In this document: positions 6,493 through 19,948 of the stretch, in pieces | How the letters are laid out: the number at the start of each line of letters is the position of its first letter | Numbering within the stretch: position 1 is the first letter of the stretch | Assembly: GCF_004340525.1 (NCBI RefSeq) | Contig: NZ_SLWX01000004.1 | Location: 186,001-250,000, forward strand | Reading direction: 5' to 3' | Source: Chromatocurvus halotolerans | GTDB taxonomy: Bacteria; Pseudomonadota; Gammaproteobacteria; Pseudomonadales; Halieaceae | Length of the DNA stretch: 64,000 nt | Translations under genes and position numbers: made by a program | Notes under the pieces: model-generated | Told to the model about the DNA's origin: nothing | Databases searched by the model: none | The model's input: only the letters and a program-made list of their open reading frames with translations

Positions 6493-6569
6493 TGGTCGGT
6501 GTGAGAGGATTCGAACCTCCGACCCCTTCCTCCCGAAGGAAGTGCGCTACCAGGCTGCGCTACACACCG
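6493..6569 (-). tRNA. tRNA-Pro (anticodon CGG)
   Basis: The minus strand folds as a 77-base tRNA including encoded CCA. The acceptor stem is CGGTGTG/CACACCG, the D arm contains GCGCAGCCTGGTAGCGC, and the anticodon stem is CTTCC/GGAAG around loop TTCGGGA, so the anticodon is CGG (reads CCG). The T arm is GGAGG-TTCGAAT-CCTCT. The sequence is very close to E. coli proK. It stands alone between the RhuM-Fic gene and the YdjM-like gene. No integrase or duplicated tRNA 3' end was found beside it. Confidence 0.97.
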
Positions 6570-10286: not shown

Positions 10287-10333
10287 GCACTATATATAGT
10301 ATTGACATGGAATATTTTCTCTAAATACGGTGT
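10287..10333 (+). promoter_or_regulatory. Promoter of nrdJa with tandem NrdR-like boxes
   Basis: A perfect 12-bp palindrome ACTATATATAGT lies at 10289-10300 inside a 16-base box (10287-10302) of NrdR type. A second, weaker 16-base box ending CGGTGT lies at 10318-10333. The box centres are 31 bases apart, about three helical turns, the usual NrdR spacing. A consensus -35 TTGACA (10302-10307) abuts box 1, so repressor binding would block RNA polymerase. The -10 is poorly defined (TAAATA at 10322 is one candidate). NrdR represses ribonucleotide reductase operons when dATP is plentiful. Confidence 0.6.
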
Positions 10334-10412: not shown

Positions 10413-13400
10413 ATGGGAGAAGCCGTACAGGCCCTGACGGCCGGACTGGACATCGATCTGCAGCCGGCATCGCTGGACATCTGGGACAAGAAGTACCGAC
10501 TCAAGGATCGCGCAGGCTCGCCTGTCGACAGGGAAATCATCGACACCTACAAGCGCGTCGCCCGTGCACTGGCTGACGCCGAGGACAGCGACGACAAGCG
10601 CAAGCAGTGGTACCAGCGCTTTGTCTGGGCACTGCAGAACGGCGCCCTGCCCGCCGGCCGCATTATCTCCAATGCCGGCGCCCAGGCCTACAAGCCCGCC
10701 ACCTCCACCATCAACTGCACGGTTTCCGGCTCCATTGTCGATTCCATGGACGATATCCTGAACAAGAACCACGAGGCCGGCATGACCCTGAAGGCGGGCT
10801 GCGGCATCGGCTACGAGTTCTCCACGCTGCGCCCCCGGGGTGCCTACGTCAGCGGGGCAGGTGCGTATACCTCCGGCCCGCTGTCGTTCATGGATATCTA
10901 CGACAAGATGTGTTTCACGGTGTCCTCCGCCGGCGGCCGCCGCGGCGCGCAGATGGCAACCTTCGACATCAACCATCCGGACGTACTCGACTTCATCCGC
11001 GCCAAGCGCGAGAACGGCCGCCTGCGCCAGTTCAACCTCAGCCTGCTGATCACCACCGAGTTCATCGAGGCGGTGAAGGCCGGTACCGACTGGCCACTGA
11101 GCTTCCCGATGACGGAGAAGGAGGCCACGGAATCCGGCTTCGACCTGAACGATCCGACCCAGGTGGTCTGGCGCCCGTTCCCCGTAAAGAAGGATTACCT
11201 GTGCAACGACACCGGCGATGTCGCCTGCCGCGTGTACAAGACGGTCCCGGCGCAGCGCCTGTGGGACATGATCATGGCCTCCACCTACGACTTCGCCGAG
11301 CCGGGATTCATCCTGATCGACAAGGTCAATGAAATGAACAACAACTGGTGGCAGGAGAGCATCCGCGCCACCAACCCCTGCGTAACCGCTGATATCTGGG
11401 TGCAGACTGCCGAGGGGCCGCAGCAGGTCGCTGACCTGGTCGGCCAGCCTTTCCAGGCGCGGGTCGATGGCGAGGATCACGCCAGCGGTGCCGAGGGCTT
11501 TTTCCGCACCGCCACCAAGGACGTGGTTCGCCTGCAGACCCGTGAAGGACACGCCCTGCGGCTGACGAGCGATCACCGCGTTCGTCGCGTTTCCACGCTC
11601 ACCCGCTGGCGTCTGGAAACGGAATGGTGTGAGGCAGGCCAGCTGCGCGCCGGTGACCAGGTATTGCTGAACAATCACCGGGATGCCGCCACCTGGGCGG
11701 GTCGCTACGGATTTGACGAGGGCTATCTCACGGGCCTGCTGATTGGCGATGGCACGCTGCAGGAAGACAAGGCCGTGCTGTCAGTCCGGACACAGGCTGC
11801 AGCCGTCAACGACAGCGGCACCAGCGACGGGACCGACGGGATCATGGCGGCGGCGCTGGCCGCAGCGCAACGCCTGCCCCAACACTCCGACCTTGCCGGC
11901 TGGCAGAAAGTCGGCGGCAGTCACGACTACAGCCTGGCGACCGGCGCATTGCGCGAGCTCGCAGCAGAGCTCGGCATGGCGCCCGAGCGCCAGCACATTA
12001 CACAGAAGGCAGAGCGCAGCTCCAGCGATTTCCACCGCGGCCTGCTGCGCGGCCTGTTCGACGCCAGGGGTTTTGTGGGCGGTGATGGCTTTGTTGGCAG
12101 CGAAGGCTTTGTCCAGGGCAATCGCAAGCAGGGTGTCAGCATCCGCCTGTCGCAGTCCAGTCTTACCACGCTGAAAGCCGCACAGCGCATGCTTTTGCGC
12201 CTGGGAATCAACTCCACGCTGCACCGGGAGGAGCGCCAGCCCGAGGGCGAGGCGCAGCTGTCAGGCGGTCACGACGGCTCGGCGAACCCTGCCGCAGCGG
12301 AAACGCACGAACTGGTGATATCCGGCGACAATATCGCCACCTATGCCGAGTCCGTGGGCTTTGCCGACACGGCCAAGCAGGACCTTCTGGAGCAGGCCCT
12401 GGCGGGCTACCCCCGACAGCTCAGCCGCGAGCGTTTTGTCGCCACCGTTGCCGGCGTCCAGGCCGATGGCGTTGAGGACGTGTTCGACGTGCAGGTTCCC
12501 GGCATCAACACCTTTGACGCCAACGGCCTGCATGCGCACAACTGCGGTGAGCAGCCCCTGCCCCCCTACGGCAGCTGCCTGCTGGGCTCCATCAACCTGA
12601 CCAAGCTGGTGCTGGACCCGTTCACCGACAAGGCGCGCTTTGACTGGGATCGCTATCGCGAGGTGGTTGCGGTATTCACCCGCATGCTCGACAACGTGGT
12701 AGAGATCAACGGCCTGCCGCTGCCCGAGCAGCGCCACGAGATCACTTACAAGCGACGCCACGGCATGGGCTTTCTGGGCCTGGGCTCCACGCTGACCATG
12801 CTCGGCATGCGCTACGGCGATGACGAGTCGGTGGAGTTCACCGAGGAAGTCTCCCGGGAGATGGCCATCACCGGCTGGCAGCAGGCGCTGGAACTGTCGC
12901 GGGAAAAGGGTGCCGCGCCGATCATGGACGACACCTTCGAAGTCACTCCCGCCATGCTGGAACTGCGCCCGGAAATGGTTGCCGACGGCATCAAGGCCGG
13001 TGACAAGCTGCCCGGCAAGGTACTGCACGCGCGCTACAGCCGCTACATGCAGCGCGTTGCCGAGGTGGCGCCGGAACTGGTGGAAGAGCTTGCCGCCGAG
13101 GGCGCGCGCTTCACCCACCACTCATCCATCGCGCCCACCGGCACGATTTCCCTGTCGCTGGCCAACAACGCCAGCAACGGCATCGAGCCCAGCTTTGCGC
13201 ATCACTATTCGCGCAACGTCATTCGCGAGGGCCGCAAGAGCAAGGAAAAGGTGGATGTGTTCTCCTTCGAGCTGCTCGCCTATCGCGAGCGCATCAACCC
13301 CCGGGCCATGCCCTACACCGAGGACGCGGCAGAGCAGCTGCCGGATTATTTCTCGGTGGCGGACGATGTCACGCCCAAGCAGCACGTGGATATCCAGGCA

Positions 13401-13724
13401 GCGGCACAGAAATGGGTGGACTCCTCCATCTCCAAGACCGCCAACGTGCCCACGGACTACCCGTTCGAGGACTTCAAGAACATCTACCTGTACGCCCACG
13501 AGAAGGGACTGAAAGGCTGCACCACCTTCCGCTTCAACCCGGAAGCCTTCCAGGGGGTACTGGTGAAGGAATCCGACCTGGAGAACACCCGCTACCAGTT
13601 CACGCTGGAAGACGGCTCCACGGTGGAAGTGAACGGCAATGAGGAAGTCGAATACGACGGCGAGATGCACTCCGCCGCCAACCTGTTCGACGCGTTGAAA
13701 GAAGGCTACTACGGCAAATTCTGA
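10413..13724 (+). CDS. nrdJa: Adenosylcobalamin-dependent ribonucleotide reductase NrdJa, intein-containing
   Basis: Class II RNR catalytic subunit that reduces ribonucleotides using B12 to create the active-site thiyl radical. The 1103-residue precursor starts at ATG 10413 (GTGGAGG nine bases upstream). After removal of a 388-residue intein (residues 323-710) the enzyme has 715 residues. Host motifs include NAGAQAYKPATSTINC, LKAGCGIGYEFS, FNLSLL, the split motif NP|CGEQPLPPYGSCLLGSI and HHSSIAPTGTISL. The intein interrupts directly before the radical cysteine, so without splicing the enzyme cannot work. The downstream nrdJb supplies the missing C-terminal part, as in Pseudomonas. The frame is intact through the intein. 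Confidence 0.95.
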   Translation: MGEAVQALTAGLDIDLQPASLDIWDKKYRLKDRAGSPVDREIIDTYKRVARALADAEDSDDKRKQWYQRFVWALQNGALPAGRIISNAGAQAYKPATSTINCTVSGSIVDSMDDILNKNHEAGMTLKAGCGIGYEFSTLRPRGAYVSGAGAYTSGPLSFMDIYDKMCFTVSSAGGRRGAQMATFDINHPDVLDFIRAKRENGRLRQFNLSLLITTEFIEAVKAGTDWPLSFPMTEKEATESGFDLNDPTQVVWRPFPVKKDYLCNDTGDVACRVYKTVPAQRLWDMIMASTYDFAEPGFILIDKVNEMNNNWWQESIRATNPCVTADIWVQTAEGPQQVADLVGQPFQARVDGEDHASGAEGFFRTATKDVVRLQTREGHALRLTSDHRVRRVSTLTRWRLETEWCEAGQLRAGDQVLLNNHRDAATWAGRYGFDEGYLTGLLIGDGTLQEDKAVLSVRTQAAAVNDSGTSDGTDGIMAAALAAAQRLPQHSDLAGWQKVGGSHDYSLATGALRELAAELGMAPERQHITQKAERSSSDFHRGLLRGLFDARGFVGGDGFVGSEGFVQGNRKQGVSIRLSQSSLTTLKAAQRMLLRLGINSTLHREERQPEGEAQLSGGHDGSANPAAAETHELVISGDNIATYAESVGFADTAKQDLLEQALAGYPRQLSRERFVATVAGVQADGVEDVFDVQVPGINTFDANGLHAHNCGEQPLPPYGSCLLGSINLTKLVLDPFTDKARFDWDRYREVVAVFTRMLDNVVEINGLPLPEQRHEITYKRRHGMGFLGLGSTLTMLGMRYGDDESVEFTEEVSREMAITGWQQALELSREKGAAPIMDDTFEVTPAMLELRPEMVADGIKAGDKLPGKVLHARYSRYMQRVAEVAPELVEELAAEGARFTHHSSIAPTGTISLSLANNASNGIEPSFAHHYSRNVIREGRKSKEKVDVFSFELLAYRERINPRAMPYTEDAAEQLPDYFSVADDVTPKQHVDIQAAAQKWVDSSISKTANVPTDYPFEDFKNIYLYAHEKGLKGCTTFRFNPEAFQGVLVKESDLENTRYQFTLEDGSTVEVNGNEEVEYDGEMHSAANLFDALKEGYYGKF
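11379..12542 (+). mobile_element. LAGLIDADG intein inserted at the active-site Cys of NrdJa
   Basis: The 388-residue protein-splicing element starts with Cys1 (CVTADIWVQTAEG, block A). Block B is LRLTSDHRV (TxxH). The C-terminus is INTFDANGLHAHN, with penultimate His and terminal Asn, followed by host Cys+1 of CGEQP. These residues support autocatalytic splicing. Two LAGLIDADG-like motifs, LTGLLIGDGTL (about 11731) and LRGLFDARGFV (about 12045), define a homing endonuclease with both acidic residues kept. RNR genes are a favoured home of inteins. An 18-bp triplication follows the second motif and may alter the endonuclease. Confidence 0.95.
12069..12122 (+). repeat. Three imperfect 18-bp tandem units inside the intein endonuclease
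   Basis: Units at 12069-12086, 12087-12104 and 12105-12122 each encode G-F-V plus three variable residues (GFVGGD, GFVGSE, GFVQGN). They directly follow the second LAGLIDADG motif. The repeat keeps the frame, so splicing is probably unaffected. Confidence 0.85.
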
Positions 13725-13741
13725 AGGCCGGGGAGAGACAC

Positions 13742-14452
13742 ATGGCAGTCAAGATCGACGGCAAGATCGTCAGTTACAAGGTTCTCGAGAAGGAAGATCC
13801 GGCTGCGGTGGTGGATACCGCCGCGCCGGCCAACGAAGAAGGTGATGTCGTGCACATGCACGAGTCCTTCCAGCGCCCAGAGCGCCTGGTGGGGTCCACC
13901 TACAAGGTGAAAACACCGATGTCGGAGCATGCGCTGTATATCACCGTGAACGATGTCATTCTCAATGAGGGCACCGAGCACGAACTGCGGCGGCCATTCG
14001 AGGTGTTCATCAACTCCAAGAACATGGAGCACTTCCAGTGGGTGGTTGCGCTGACGCGGCTGATCTCGGCGATTTTCCGCAAGGGCGGGGATGCGACCTT
14101 CCTGGTGGAGGAACTGAAAGCGGTATTCGACCCCCGCGGCGGCTACTTCAAGAAGGGTGGCGTATTCATGCCCTCGATCGTGGCCGAGATCGGCTACGCC
14201 ATCGAGGATCACATGAAGCACATCGGCCTGATCGAGAGCAAACTCGACCGGCACCAGCAGGACTTTCTCGAACAGAAGCGCCGGGAAATGGGTGGAGCCG
14301 ATGTAAAAAAGCCACAGGGCGCTGAGGAGGAGCAGACCGAGTCCGATTTCCCTCCCAGCGCCAGCCTGTGCATGAAGTGCCATACCAAGGCCGTAGTGCT
14401 GATGGATGGGTGCATGACGTGTTTGAACTGTGCGGATTCGAAATGCGGTTGA
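13742..14452 (+). CDS. nrdJb: NrdJb, C-terminal subunit of split class II ribonucleotide reductase
   Basis: The 236-residue protein begins 17 bases after nrdJa. It contains the TSCPD-type domain (ALYITVNDVILNEG, FEVFINSKNMEHFQWV, LTRLISAIFRKGGD) that forms the C-terminal part of undivided class II reductases. The tail carries cysteines in CMKCHTKAVV and CMTCLNCADSKCG, which may shuttle reducing equivalents to the active site or bind zinc. In Pseudomonas aeruginosa NrdJa and NrdJb are also separate and both are required. A GC-rich hairpin (14467-14485) follows the stop but lacks a T run, so termination there is uncertain. Confidence 0.92.
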   Translation: MAVKIDGKIVSYKVLEKEDPAAVVDTAAPANEEGDVVHMHESFQRPERLVGSTYKVKTPMSEHALYITVNDVILNEGTEHELRRPFEVFINSKNMEHFQWVVALTRLISAIFRKGGDATFLVEELKAVFDPRGGYFKKGGVFMPSIVAEIGYAIEDHMKHIGLIESKLDRHQQDFLEQKRREMGGADVKKPQGAEEEQTESDFPPSASLCMKCHTKAVVLMDGCMTCLNCADSKCG

Positions 14453-15703: not shown

Positions 15704-18700
15704 ATGAAACACGACAATTACCTGAAAACCGAGCTGTATGAGCAAATCAGGAAAGATGACGACCTCTTTGACTTCATTCAGGACACCTGCCTTGATGGCC
15801 TGTGGTACTGGGATCTGGAACACCCGGAAAACGAATGGATGAATGCGCGTTTCTGGCGCGTGCTGGGGTATGACCCCGACGAAATGCCGGATTCACCGGA
15901 CGCCTGGCAGGGGATCGTCAATGAAAGCGATCTTGCTGCCACCACCGAAAACTTCAACCGGCATCTGGAGAACGGGAACTATCCGTTTGACCAGACCATA
16001 AGATACCGACACCGGGATGGCAGCACCGTCTGGATCCGCTGCCACGGGAAAGCGATTCGCGACAGCAACGGCAAGCCGCTGAGAATGCTCGGTGTGCACA
16101 AGGATGTCACCGAATTCAAGGCGGCGGAAAACAAGCTGACCAAGGCCGTCGAACAGACACGGCAGAATGTCATTGACCTCGAAAAAACGACGACGCTGCT
16201 CAATTACGCACAACAGGTATCGAACATTGGTGCCTGGGAACTTGATATCGCGACCGGGGAGACATCCTGGACCGATCAGGTATATGCGATTCATGAAGTC
16301 GAAAAAGACTTTGATCACAACCGCGTGAACGGTACCGCGTTCTATCATCCTGAAGATCAGCCTGTTATCAACGCAGCTGTCGCCAGGGCCATCACCGATG
16401 GGACTCCGTTTGATGTCATCTGCAGGTTTATCACCGCCAGGGGCAACCACCGCTGGGTGCGTGCCTCTGGCTCGCCAATCCTGTCGCAAGGCGAAATCTC
16501 CCGTTTATTCGGAATGATTCAGGACGTGACCGCAGAAAAAGAGGCGGAGAGAGAGCGGCAGATTCTGACGGAACGCCTGGCCCTGGCTACGGAATCCGCC
16601 GGCCTCGGCATCTGGGACTATGACGTGAGCAGTGGCCATCTTGAGTGGGACGAGGGTATGTTCCGTCTTTTTGGGGCGGATCCGGCCAATTTTGGCAACC
16701 GCTTTGAAGATTTCGAGCGTCAGTTGGTGGGAGAGTCCCGCTACCAGACCGTGAGCCGGTTCCAGGCAGCCCTCATGTCGGGCACTGAGTTTGAGACCAA
16801 GCTGCTGATACGTCGCGCTGATGATGGTGCCCTGCGCACGCTGGGCGGCCAGGGCACAGTCATCCGCGACAGTGCGGGGGCAGCGGTGCGCGTGGTCGGT
16901 ATCAATCAGGATATCACCGCGGATGAGGACAATCGCAGCCGACTCGCCGCAGAAGAGGCAAAATTCAGGGGGCTGTTCGAGCTGTCACCGGTGGGTATTG
17001 CCATGAATGACTACGCCACGGGGGAGTTTCTTGAGTTCAATAACGCCGTCATCGCACCTACCGGCTACACGCGAGAAGAATTCAAGACCCTGAGCTACTG
17101 GCAAGTGACGCCCGAGAGCTACCTGGCGGAAGAACAGAACGCGCTCTTGTCCCTGGAGCGGACGGGGCACTACGGCCCATTCGAAAAGGAGTACATCCGC
17201 AAGGACGGCTCGCGCTACCCGGTTCTGCTGCATGGTTTCAAGACGACATCAGCAGAAGGTCGCAAAGTCATCTGGTCCATTATCCAGGATATCTCCGAGC
17301 AGCGTGCCGCCTACGAGGCCGTGCGCGTTGCCAAAGAACGTTTCGGCGGTATCTTCGAGCAAACAGGGAGTGGCGTCGCCGTTTATCGCCCCACCGACGA
17401 CGGCTCGGATTTTATCTTCATCGACTACAATCCTGCAGCTGCCCAGATTGACCGCCTCGAACGTGATACGGTCCTGGGACGACGCCTTACCGACTGTTTT
17501 CCAGCTGCCAGTGAAATGGGGCTGCTGCAGGCCCTGCAAAGGGTGGCACTCACCGGCGAGGCAGAAAAGCTTCCCGTTGCCGAATACAGAGACGAGCGCA
17601 TTCTGGGTTGGCGGGAAAACCGTATTTTCCGGCTCTCGTCCGGAGAGGTGGTTGCGGTTTATGATGATCTGACAGAAATCAAACAAGCGCAGCAGCTTTC
17701 AGAGGACGCGTTGCGATCCGCGGAACGGGCCAACCAGGCCAAAAGCGACTTCCTGGCCAACATGAGCCACGAAATCCGGACGCCGATGAACGCGATTATC
17801 GGACTGAGCCAGCTTCTACAGCAAACGCGCCTGGATGAAAAACAGTTTGATTATCTGAACAAGATCCACAACGCATCGCGGATGCTGCTTGGCATTCTCA
17901 ACGACATCCTCGACTTTTCAAAAATCGAGGCAGGACGCCTGGAGCTGGAGTCCCGCGCCTTTGACCTGCATGATACGGTTGACCAGGTGGCCGTGATGTT
18001 TGGCGGTACCGCCAACGCCGCAAAGCTGGAATTCATCTACAACATTCAGCCCGACCTTCCCGCCTGTCTGGTCGGGGATTCCCTGCGCCTGTCCCAGGTG
18101 CTGACAAATCTTCTCAGTAATGCCTTCAAGTTTACCGAGGAGGGCGGACTCGTCGAGCTTGGCATCCATAGCGTCCGACCTGTGTCCGATGGCAACGCGA
18201 GGCTGCGCTTCAGCGTTCGCGACACCGGTATTGGCATCAGCGAAGACGCACAATCCAGACTGTTCAAGGCGTTCAGCCAGGCTGATAGTTCGACCACCCG
18301 TCGCTACGGTGGATCCGGACTGGGGCTGGTCATCAGCCGGCGACTGGTGGAAGCCATGGGAGGAGAATTGCGGGTAAGCTCGCGGCCCGGCGAAGGAAGC
18401 CGGTTCTACTTCACCCTGGATATGGATGTCGCGCCCGGGGCCGGATCGTCGAGAGACTGCGTGAGGCTGCAGGGGCGCCGCACACTGATTGTCGACGATC
18501 AGCCGGACAGCCGGGCGGCCATCCGCCAGTTGCTGCACCACTACGGCTGCTCCACCCATGAGGCTGACTGCGGTGAGAACGCCATTGCATCCGTCATGAC
18601 TGCCGAAAAAGAAAACAGGCCCTTCGACTTCATCCTGATTGACTGGCTGATGCCGGGCGGAATGAACGGCGCCGAAACCTGTGAAAAGCTCGAACGCATG

Positions 18701-19948
18701 CGCTGCAGTGGCCAGCTGCGGCAAGTGCGGCCGCCACTGCTGATGGTGAGCGCTTATCAGAAAGACGAGGTCACATTACCCGACGGCGTGGCCATCGAGT
18801 TCCTGCCCAAGCCCGTCGACGCTTCCAGCCTTTACGATGCATTGATCCGCGCCGAAACGCGCGGGAAGCCAGCGCATACTCAGCCCATGCTAACTGCCAG
18901 CAAACCGCCCGACCTGGCCGGCCACGAGCTGCTACTGGTGGAGGACAATGAAATCAACCAGGAGGTGGCCCAGCTGCTGCTGGAGTCTACCGGCGCCCGC
19001 GTGCGCACGGTCAACAATGGCCTCGAGGCGGTTGAGGCTGTCAGCGAACGGACCCCCGATCTCATTTTTATGGATCTGCAGATGCCCGTGATGGATGGCT
19101 TTGAGGCCACACGGATACTGCGCCAAACCGGCTATAGCGGTCCCGTTGTCGCACTGTCAGCCGCGGTGATGGATGACGACCGGGAACGCGCGAAAGCGGC
19201 GGGAATGGATGCCCATCTGGGCAAGCCTATCGACACCCTGGAACTTTACGCGGTGTTACTTGAGCAGCTGGCAACCGTGGGGACCGCGCGCCGCCGGTCG
19301 CGGGCACCGCAGGCACAGAGTGCTGGCCGCCATGCTGACTCCAGTAAAGGACGGGGAACAGCTGATGTGCTGCCAGCGCACCTGCCCGGCTTCGACCTTG
19401 ATAAGGGACTCGAAAGACTCGCGGGTAACGAGGCGCTATATGTCAGCCTTCTGCTGGACCTGCACCGAAAACTGCAAACCGACTACGCCCAGCTTGGCAG
19501 CCATTTACGATCTGGAAATACGCAGGCCGCGGGGCACCTCGCGCATGCCCTCCGCGGGGTAGCCGGCACTCTCGCCGCGGTGAGTCTGCAGAGCCTGGCG
19601 GGGGACATCGATGAGGCTCTCAAACAGGGGCAAGCCGTGGAAGAAACCCGGATTGAGGCCCTGGAGCAGGCGCTGGAAGACAGCGAACAGGCGCTCCGGG
19701 CGCTGGCGTCTGCTGAAGAGCAGACACCTTCACAGACGGGCTCGGCAGGGGCGGTGCCGGAGCTGCGGCGCCTCCTGGAAAACAGCGAGCTGGTAGAGGA
19801 TGCCGTCTTGCAGGAGGCGCTGGCCTGGCTACGCAGTCACAACCACAACTGCAGTGAACTTGAAGCACAGGTGGCCCAGTTCGAGTTTGAGCAGGCCCTG
19901 CAGACACTCGACGCGATGACAATATCAACGCTGGACCGTATCCCATGA
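15704..19948 (+). CDS. Cytosolic hybrid sensor histidine kinase with five PAS domains, two receivers and Hpt
   Basis: The 1414-residue protein has no membrane segment, so it senses internal signals. In order: PAS domains (about residues 15-145, 160-285, 290-410, 420-540, 545-665), HisKA with His689 in FLANMSHEIRTPMNAI, HATPase (N box LTNLLSNAFKF at about 800, DTGIGIS, GSGLGLVISRRL), receiver 1 (Asp980 in LIDWLMPGG), receiver 2 (Asp1124 in FMDLQMPVMDG) and Hpt (His1281 in LAHALRGVAG). This is a full internal phosphorelay. Its stop overlaps the start of a REC-GGDEF gene (ATGA), the obvious output. The ATG at 15704 itself overlaps the stop of a 20-codon ORF (15645-15707), suggesting coupled translation, since no ribosome site is visible. 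Confidence 0.95.
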   Translation: MKHDNYLKTELYEQIRKDDDLFDFIQDTCLDGLWYWDLEHPENEWMNARFWRVLGYDPDEMPDSPDAWQGIVNESDLAATTENFNRHLENGNYPFDQTIRYRHRDGSTVWIRCHGKAIRDSNGKPLRMLGVHKDVTEFKAAENKLTKAVEQTRQNVIDLEKTTTLLNYAQQVSNIGAWELDIATGETSWTDQVYAIHEVEKDFDHNRVNGTAFYHPEDQPVINAAVARAITDGTPFDVICRFITARGNHRWVRASGSPILSQGEISRLFGMIQDVTAEKEAERERQILTERLALATESAGLGIWDYDVSSGHLEWDEGMFRLFGADPANFGNRFEDFERQLVGESRYQTVSRFQAALMSGTEFETKLLIRRADDGALRTLGGQGTVIRDSAGAAVRVVGINQDITADEDNRSRLAAEEAKFRGLFELSPVGIAMNDYATGEFLEFNNAVIAPTGYTREEFKTLSYWQVTPESYLAEEQNALLSLERTGHYGPFEKEYIRKDGSRYPVLLHGFKTTSAEGRKVIWSIIQDISEQRAAYEAVRVAKERFGGIFEQTGSGVAVYRPTDDGSDFIFIDYNPAAAQIDRLERDTVLGRRLTDCFPAASEMGLLQALQRVALTGEAEKLPVAEYRDERILGWRENRIFRLSSGEVVAVYDDLTEIKQAQQLSEDALRSAERANQAKSDFLANMSHEIRTPMNAIIGLSQLLQQTRLDEKQFDYLNKIHNASRMLLGILNDILDFSKIEAGRLELESRAFDLHDTVDQVAVMFGGTANAAKLEFIYNIQPDLPACLVGDSLRLSQVLTNLLSNAFKFTEEGGLVELGIHSVRPVSDGNARLRFSVRDTGIGISEDAQSRLFKAFSQADSSTTRRYGGSGLGLVISRRLVEAMGGELRVSSRPGEGSRFYFTLDMDVAPGAGSSRDCVRLQGRRTLIVDDQPDSRAAIRQLLHHYGCSTHEADCGENAIASVMTAEKENRPFDFILIDWLMPGGMNGAETCEKLERMRCSGQLRQVRPPLLMVSAYQKDEVTLPDGVAIEFLPKPVDASSLYDALIRAETRGKPAHTQPMLTASKPPDLAGHELLLVEDNEINQEVAQLLLESTGARVRTVNNGLEAVEAVSERTPDLIFMDLQMPVMDGFEATRILRQTGYSGPVVALSAAVMDDDRERAKAAGMDAHLGKPIDTLELYAVLLEQLATVGTARRRSRAPQAQSAGRHADSSKGRGTADVLPAHLPGFDLDKGLERLAGNEALYVSLLLDLHRKLQTDYAQLGSHLRSGNTQAAGHLAHALRGVAGTLAAVSLQSLAGDIDEALKQGQAVEETRIEALEQALEDSEQALRALASAEEQTPSQTGSAGAVPELRRLLENSELVEDAVLQEALAWLRSHNHNCSELEAQVAQFEFEQALQTLDAMTISTLDRIP

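Follow-up and report, generated by a model that had tools for sequence, protein, structure and literature searches.

A rir1-b Intein with a Probably Decayed Endonuclease Domain in the Split Class II Ribonucleotide Reductase of Chromatocurvus halotolerans

1. Inteins of Ribonucleotide Reductases and the Homing Cycle

Class 1 inteins have a Cys or Ser at position 1, a TxxH motif in block B, a C-terminal His-Asn pair and a Cys, Ser or Thr at position +1. An active LAGLIDADG endonuclease has two motifs, each with a catalytic acidic residue at position 8. The RIR1 mini-intein of Methanothermobacter (Mth), 134 residues long and located in a class II ribonucleotide reductase (RNR), lacks an endonuclease. 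The NCBIfam model PRK08332 (NF006207) of vitamin B12-dependent RNR represents Pyrococcus, whose protein is longer and contains at least two inteins.

According to the homing-cycle model, the endonuclease is freed from selection once the element is fixed, whereas splicing continues to be selected for (PMC1654191; PMC3229294). The rir1-b allele was reported in 2014 from 15 halobacterial, 55 bacterial and 5 other euryarchaeal sequences, and Table 3 of that report includes Methylobacter marinus, Thioalkalivibrio and Halomonas among its members (PMC4071816). MTH652 is given as the only Methanothermobacter protein encoded with an intein (PMC3087415). The R2 subunit (NrdB) of Aquifex aeolicus also carries a LAGLIDADG intein that separates residues of the active centre and splices to a functional subunit, but this subunit is the small one of a class I enzyme and the site is different (PMC8772380).

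The element described here lies in a 64,000-nucleotide stretch of the genome of Chromatocurvus halotolerans that was analysed as a whole (hereafter the window). It is very probably a class 1 cis-splicing intein of the rir1-b family in NrdJa of a split adenosylcobalamin-dependent RNR, which would have reached the endonuclease-decay stage of the homing cycle and kept its splicing activity.

2. Organization of the nrdJab Locus

A single open frame of 1103 aa (10413–13724, + strand) encodes NrdJa and reads through a 388-aa insert that separates exteins of 322 and 393 aa (715 aa altogether). The features of the locus are as follows; a slash marks a splice junction.

10413–11378 (+): N-extein of NrdJa, 322 aa, ending in IRATNP (Pfam Ribonuc_red_lgN and lgC, NCBIfam TIGR02504)
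11379–12542 (+): intein, 388 aa, site family rir1-b (junctions NP/C...HN/CGEQP, relatives, conserved columns)
11379–11693 (+): N-terminal splicing part, residues 1–105, with Cys1, T63-x-x-H66 and ETEWCEAG (1 of 46 conserved columns broken)
11565–11576 (+): block B TSDH, T63–H66 (motif reading, alignment)
11628–11630 (+): Cys84, the only intein cysteine other than Cys1 (conserved in all 38 sequences)
11694–12413 (+): LAGLIDADG endonuclease domain, apparently degenerate, residues 106–345 (PF14528; 19 of 87 conserved columns broken; branch dN/dS about 0.65)
11727–11753 (+): first LAGLIDADG motif LTGLLIGDG, residues 117–125, acidic D124 kept (alignment)
12045–12071 (+): second LAGLIDADG motif LRGLFDARG, with Arg instead of Asp at position 8 (alignment)
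12066–12101 (+): 36-nt in-frame insertion in the second motif, residues 230–241 (alignment; block pLDDT 53)
12414–12542 (+): C-terminal splicing part, residues 346–388, with D370, His387 and Asn388 (1 of 23 conserved columns broken)
12543–13724 (+): C-extein of NrdJa, 393 aa and stop; its first residue, Cys+1, pairs in the alignment with residue 322 of Thermotoga maritima NrdJ
13742–14452 (+): nrdJb, TSCPD domain (PF12637) and C-terminal cysteines, partner in the split class II RNR (Pfam/NCBIfam profiles)

The boundaries between splicing and endonuclease parts (residues 105/106 and 345/346) were set by our own choice. NrdJa scores 549 bits with TIGR02504, the model of adenosylcobalamin-dependent RNR (cut-off 400). 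The enzyme is of the split class II type, as a catalytic chain, NrdJa, is followed by NrdJb with its TSCPD domain and C-terminal cysteines. The sequence-only reading had located the insertion at the radical cysteine, and this is borne out, as the counterpart of Cys+1 in T. maritima NrdJ (PDB 1xje) is residue 322, the thiyl-radical cysteine. A split NrdJa-NrdJb enzyme has been described for Pseudomonas aeruginosa (PMC4520616).

Some features of the surroundings may be mentioned. The palindromic GCACTATATATAGTAT lies at 10287–10302, about 110 bases 5' of the nrdJa start, and differs by 2 mismatches from the NrdR-box consensus. This one palindromic site is counted on both strands, the expected number is 0.22, and 7 of 100 shuffles reach 2. 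A tRNA (6496–6569) is all that the window yields at the gathering level of Rfam, and no B12 riboswitch was found upstream of nrdJa. Adjoining nrdJab, a frame of 1414 aa (15704–19948) resembles, from its translation, a PAS-rich hybrid histidine kinase.

3. Identity of the Intein and Its Splicing Domain

The splicing residues of the insert are complete (C1, T63-S-D-H66, H387, N388 and C+1), as the sequence-only reading had stated, and they are those of a class 1 intein. Generic intein profiles stay under their curated cut-offs (PF14890, 29 versus 35.8 bits; TIGR01445, 20.5 versus 24.5 bits). LAGLIDADG_3 (PF14528) gives 68 bits for a cut-off of 22.5, which indicates LAGLIDADG ancestry, and tblastn E-values of 2e-90 to 2e-167 against 35 relative loci rule out a chance match. 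An AlphaFold2 model built from 29 sequences has a mean pLDDT of 85.4, and its best Foldseek matches in the PDB are intein-plus-endonuclease structures, namely TliVMA (7qsu, by its title an engineered variant; 2.8e-17), PI-SceI (1vde; 1.8e-12) and PI-PfuI (1dq3; 9.4e-12), which share the two-domain fold at an identity of just 11–13%. On these sequence and model grounds, the 388-residue insert is an intein, and its limits, already proposed at 11379–12542, are correct: both junctions are common to 32 of the 35 loci and relatives have empty sites.

Two known elements bear on its ends. NrdJa residues 364–1042 align with positions 941–1555 of PRK08332, across the C-terminal junction; because this alignment runs from the intein through the junction into the C-extein, an intein in the model ends at the same place. 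NrdJa differs from this model, however, in scoring 268 bits where the cut-off is 2400. With the Mth RIR1 mini-intein, of the same enzyme class, identity is 43% over 99 and over 35 positions of the alignment. Unlike the window intein, the mini-intein has no endonuclease and may represent the end state that the window intein is approaching.

Only 2 of 68 conserved columns are broken in the splicing domain, and its branch dN/dS is 0.07 (exteins, 0.19). The intein should thus still splice. An N-S shift at Cys1, transfer to Cys+1, cyclisation of Asn388 and an S-N shift would excise it after translation. Splicing would join NP to CGEQP, which puts the radical cysteine back into a complete N-P-C-G-E active-site loop; the precursor should have no activity until it is spliced.

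4. Site Family, Distribution and History

A scan of a genome collection with the intein yielded 35 loci with relatives. According to record titles, the relatives belong to Haliea, Sedimenticola, Thioalkalivibrio, Methylobacter, Hahella, Luteimonas and other gammaproteobacteria, one Trueperaceae MAG and one unclassified bacterial MAG. NP/C and HN/CGE are both common to 32 of these loci, and the other three (L032, L034 and L035), which are incomplete, keep the one junction that they cover. The nrdJ intein of Methylobacter marinus A45 (L016) lies at NP/C...HN/CGEQP and aligns over its full length with that of the window. As M. marinus is listed among the rir1-b inteins (PMC4071816), the window site is the known rir1-b allele, an assignment based on this shared species and not on compared accessions or site coordinates. 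The novelty of the site was therefore not upheld; the window adds one more member, which differs from the rir1-b intein of L016 by its degenerate endonuclease. A search of the open-licence literature by subject found no report on this particular gene.

Intein carriers are rare in the host family (5 of 140 genomes). A sixth candidate, G033 (E-value 4.5e-4), was dropped, as no intein features were visible in the frames at its locus. Exact empty sites, detected with a DNA pattern for NPCGEQ, occur in 19 of 58 genomes, including 11 of the 36 other genomes of the family; all 19 have NrdJ context on both sides, the NPCGEQ itself being demanded by the pattern. In the extein tree (6 of 54 rows with short exteins dropped; L034, L035, L065 and L066 outside it), the closest NrdJ is the empty one of G013, the sister of the window protein (100/98; 88% identity). 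Together with the empty G009 and the occupied L039 (Haliea sp. E1-2-M8) and G026, they form a five-member clade. The intein tree also groups the window with L039 and G026, though at a weak fork (82/57) that contains the long-branched L036. Between the window and L039, dS is 0.97 for the endonuclease, 0.84–0.99 for the exteins and 1.74 for the short splicing parts. The simplest reading of these sequence comparisons would be an intein in the common ancestor followed by precise losses in G013 and G009, the alternatives being separate gains or gene replacement.

Synteny was rejected as a proof of orthology. nrdJa and nrdJb are adjacent in G013, G009, G026 and G016, and none of 8 neighbouring frames of the window has a close match within 15–17 kb around these pairs (two signalling-type frames match weakly, at 27–36%). 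Since synteny gave no close neighbour matches, the case for vertical descent is the one made by the trees and dS. The nrdJa-nrdJb pair (10413–14452) is flanked by differing neighbours in four relatives (L061–L064), a picture that relocation of the pair or rearrangement around it would give.

Phages and plasmids were also considered as sources. Just 17 of 50,697 phage records match, remotely (20–22% identity; 14 are from Bacillus phages, and several carry the annotation RNR alpha subunit), and 2 of 72,556 plasmids match, at 27.6% and 20.2% identity. Recent transfer by phages or plasmids thus finds no support.

5. Decay of the Endonuclease Domain

What distinguishes the window intein is that its DNA-cutting half appears broken and its self-removal half intact. 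Both LAGLIDADG motifs had been described as present. This holds for the first, LTGLLIGDG, but the second reads LRGLFDARG and contains an insertion of 12 extra residues (230–241), so that only one of the two catalytic acidic residues is in place. This insertion displaces the catalytic Asp and occurs in the window only (1 of 38 distinct sequences); a possible reading of it, taken together with 12102–12119, is a row of three diverged 18-nt units (RGFVGG, DGFVGS and EGFVQG). A catalytic acidic residue is lost in 4 of 38 sequences, those of the window, L016, L022 and L023. In the three relatives, Asp-to-Asn changes are seen at the catalytic positions, in the first motif of L016 (3001–4131) and in the second motif of L022 and L023 (3001–4131 in each).

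The damage extends beyond the motif. A column was considered conserved if at least 90% of the other rows (35 rows) agree; this count and the intein tree exclude the incomplete L032, L034 and L035 as well as L065 (identical to L039), and the count giving 1/46 N-terminal and 1/23 C-terminal broken columns omits L004 (identical to L006). The window has lost 19 of 87 such columns in the endonuclease versus 2 of 68 in the splicing domain (Fisher p 6e-4). Its nearest kin have hardly any broken endonuclease columns (L039, 0/85; G026, 0/85; L006, 1/86). The remote L036 has 21 of 90 broken, yet 11 of 72 splicing columns are broken there too.

Substitution rates point in the same direction. The three-taxon branch dN of the endonuclease is 0.234 for the window (bootstrap 0.186–0.294), versus 0.058 for L039 and 0.041 for G026; those of the splicing domain are 0.074, 0.056 and 0.058, respectively. 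The endonuclease-to-splicing ratio of the window thus exceeds that of its sisters 3.7-fold (1.8–8.4). Because the window exteins have evolved fast as well (dN 0.083 versus 0.030 and 0.030), the endonuclease-over-extein excess is only 1.7-fold (1.06–2.9). Endonuclease branch dN/dS is about 0.65 for the window (bootstrap 0.36–2.0), versus 0.10 for L039 and 0.08 for G026, and thus does not indicate purifying selection; these ratios are approximate because dS approaches saturation, ranging from 0.84 to >2 when the window is paired with its two nearest kin and being infinite in some other pairs.

Structure models add some detail. Residues 281–310 of the window model have block pLDDT values of 38–58, whereas the matching part of L039 forms strands at about 82–90, and the motif helix of the window stops two residues before that of the L039 model. 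The latter is itself poor at its C-terminus (pLDDT below 50 at 366–375), which weakens the structural comparison, and the Foldseek scores of the two models are similar (7qsu, 2.8e-17 and 9.4e-17).

It is quite unlikely that the endonuclease is still active and that the 12-residue insert and the substitutions alter its specificity only. In favour of activity, the frame is uninterrupted, the first motif retains its acidic residue, the EG pair after the insert could replace DG, the fold search does not separate the window model from that of an intact relative, and the lower bootstrap bound of dN/dS would allow some constraint. Against this stand the uniqueness of the insert, the number of conserved columns lost and a dN/dS several times that of L039 and G026. 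The domain has thus probably lost selection, and it would have been inactivated by the insertion at the second Asp and the loss of many conserved residues.

The window intein fits the homing-cycle model closely. It was presumably gained through homing in an ancestor; its endonuclease would then have lost selection and probably died, and the element would now be passed on with its host gene.

6. Predicted Dependence of the Host on Splicing

The genome of C. halotolerans (99.99% complete draft, 45 contigs) contains a single match to PF02867, nrdJa itself, and searches of this genome with the PF00268 (small subunit) and PF13597 (class III) profiles gave none. The same profiles matched in 11 (PF02867), 7 (PF00268) and 6 (PF13597) of 14 known control genomes. 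NrdJ is therefore the sole RNR found, on strong though not absolute evidence, the genome being a 45-contig draft. Because no other RNR was found, dNTP synthesis should need splicing; the dependence of DNA precursor supply on splicing that had been suggested from the window is strengthened in this way, as far as gene content can indicate it.

Among 12 family genomes checked, that of the window (G000), G013 and G036 have no PF00268 match and one PF02867 match; in the remaining nine, PF00268 is present and PF02867 matches twice. Class I RNR was thus probably lost in the lineage of these three, the nine other members having class I and class II enzymes. The other four intein-bearing genomes of the family (G016, G026, G063 and G068) have PF00268.

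This contrast suggested that reliance on a single RNR drives endonuclease decay, an idea that was tried and rejected as a general rule. Among the 35 locus genomes, the catalytic Asp is changed in 2 of 25 without PF00268 (L016 and L023) versus 1 of 10 with it (L022), and the PF00268 absences are soft, as 31 of the 35 are MAGs according to their record titles.

7. Possible Roles of the Retained Intein

The sequence-only reading had raised a redox-sensitive intein that links RNR activity to the redox state of the cell. Oxidation of Cys1, Cys84 or Cys+1, the cysteines at hand, for example as a Cys1-Cys84 disulfide, would stall splicing. Cys84, in ETEWCEAG, is indeed kept in all 38 sequences, and we know of no role for it in splicing. 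However, its neighbours E80–G87 are invariant in 29 sequences, so that it may be structural, and the Mth RIR1 mini-intein shows a gap instead of a Cys at this position. A disulfide of a catalytic cysteine that stalls splicing on oxidation has been published for the class 3 intein DnaBi1 (PMC6195587). In the window, 51 residues separate the junction from the nearest N-extein cysteine, while in 27 of 34 occupied alleles there is a cysteine at -9. The redox link received no positive support and is very unlikely.

A wider form of this proposal is held to be very improbable as well. It views the intein as domesticated: after the loss of mobility, and in a cell that has a single RNR, splicing would act as a post-translational gate, through redox state or maturation, on all dNTP synthesis and would have been kept while the sister lineage purged the intein.

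Very little credence is given to a role in maturation, in which the intein would, for example, prevent the active-site loop from closing before cofactor binding or folding is complete and would have been retained for this after the death of the endonuclease. The A. aeolicus R2 intein separates metal ligands, and the protein made with it is reported to contain more iron and to have twice the activity (PMC8772380); the window intein does persist although its endonuclease looks dead. However, such retention is expected anyway, as loss must be precise (PMC3229294), and the closest NrdJ, that of G013, and the NrdJ of G009 do without an intein.

Finally, it is barely conceivable that the splicing domain is dead and NrdJ unused, as nothing but the weak generic profile scores speaks for this, against complete splicing residues, low dN/dS in splicing domain and exteins and the lack of any other RNR found in the genome.

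8. Conclusions

An intein whose endonuclease has probably died and whose splicing domain is predicted to work makes the window a clear snapshot of the middle of the homing cycle. A single NrdJ clade holds an intact-looking endonuclease (L039 and G026), a wrecked one (the window) and empty alleles (G013 and G009). Because NrdJ is the sole RNR found in the host, C. halotolerans would be a clean natural system in which to ask whether placing an intein at a catalytic radical residue burdens growth or controls it.
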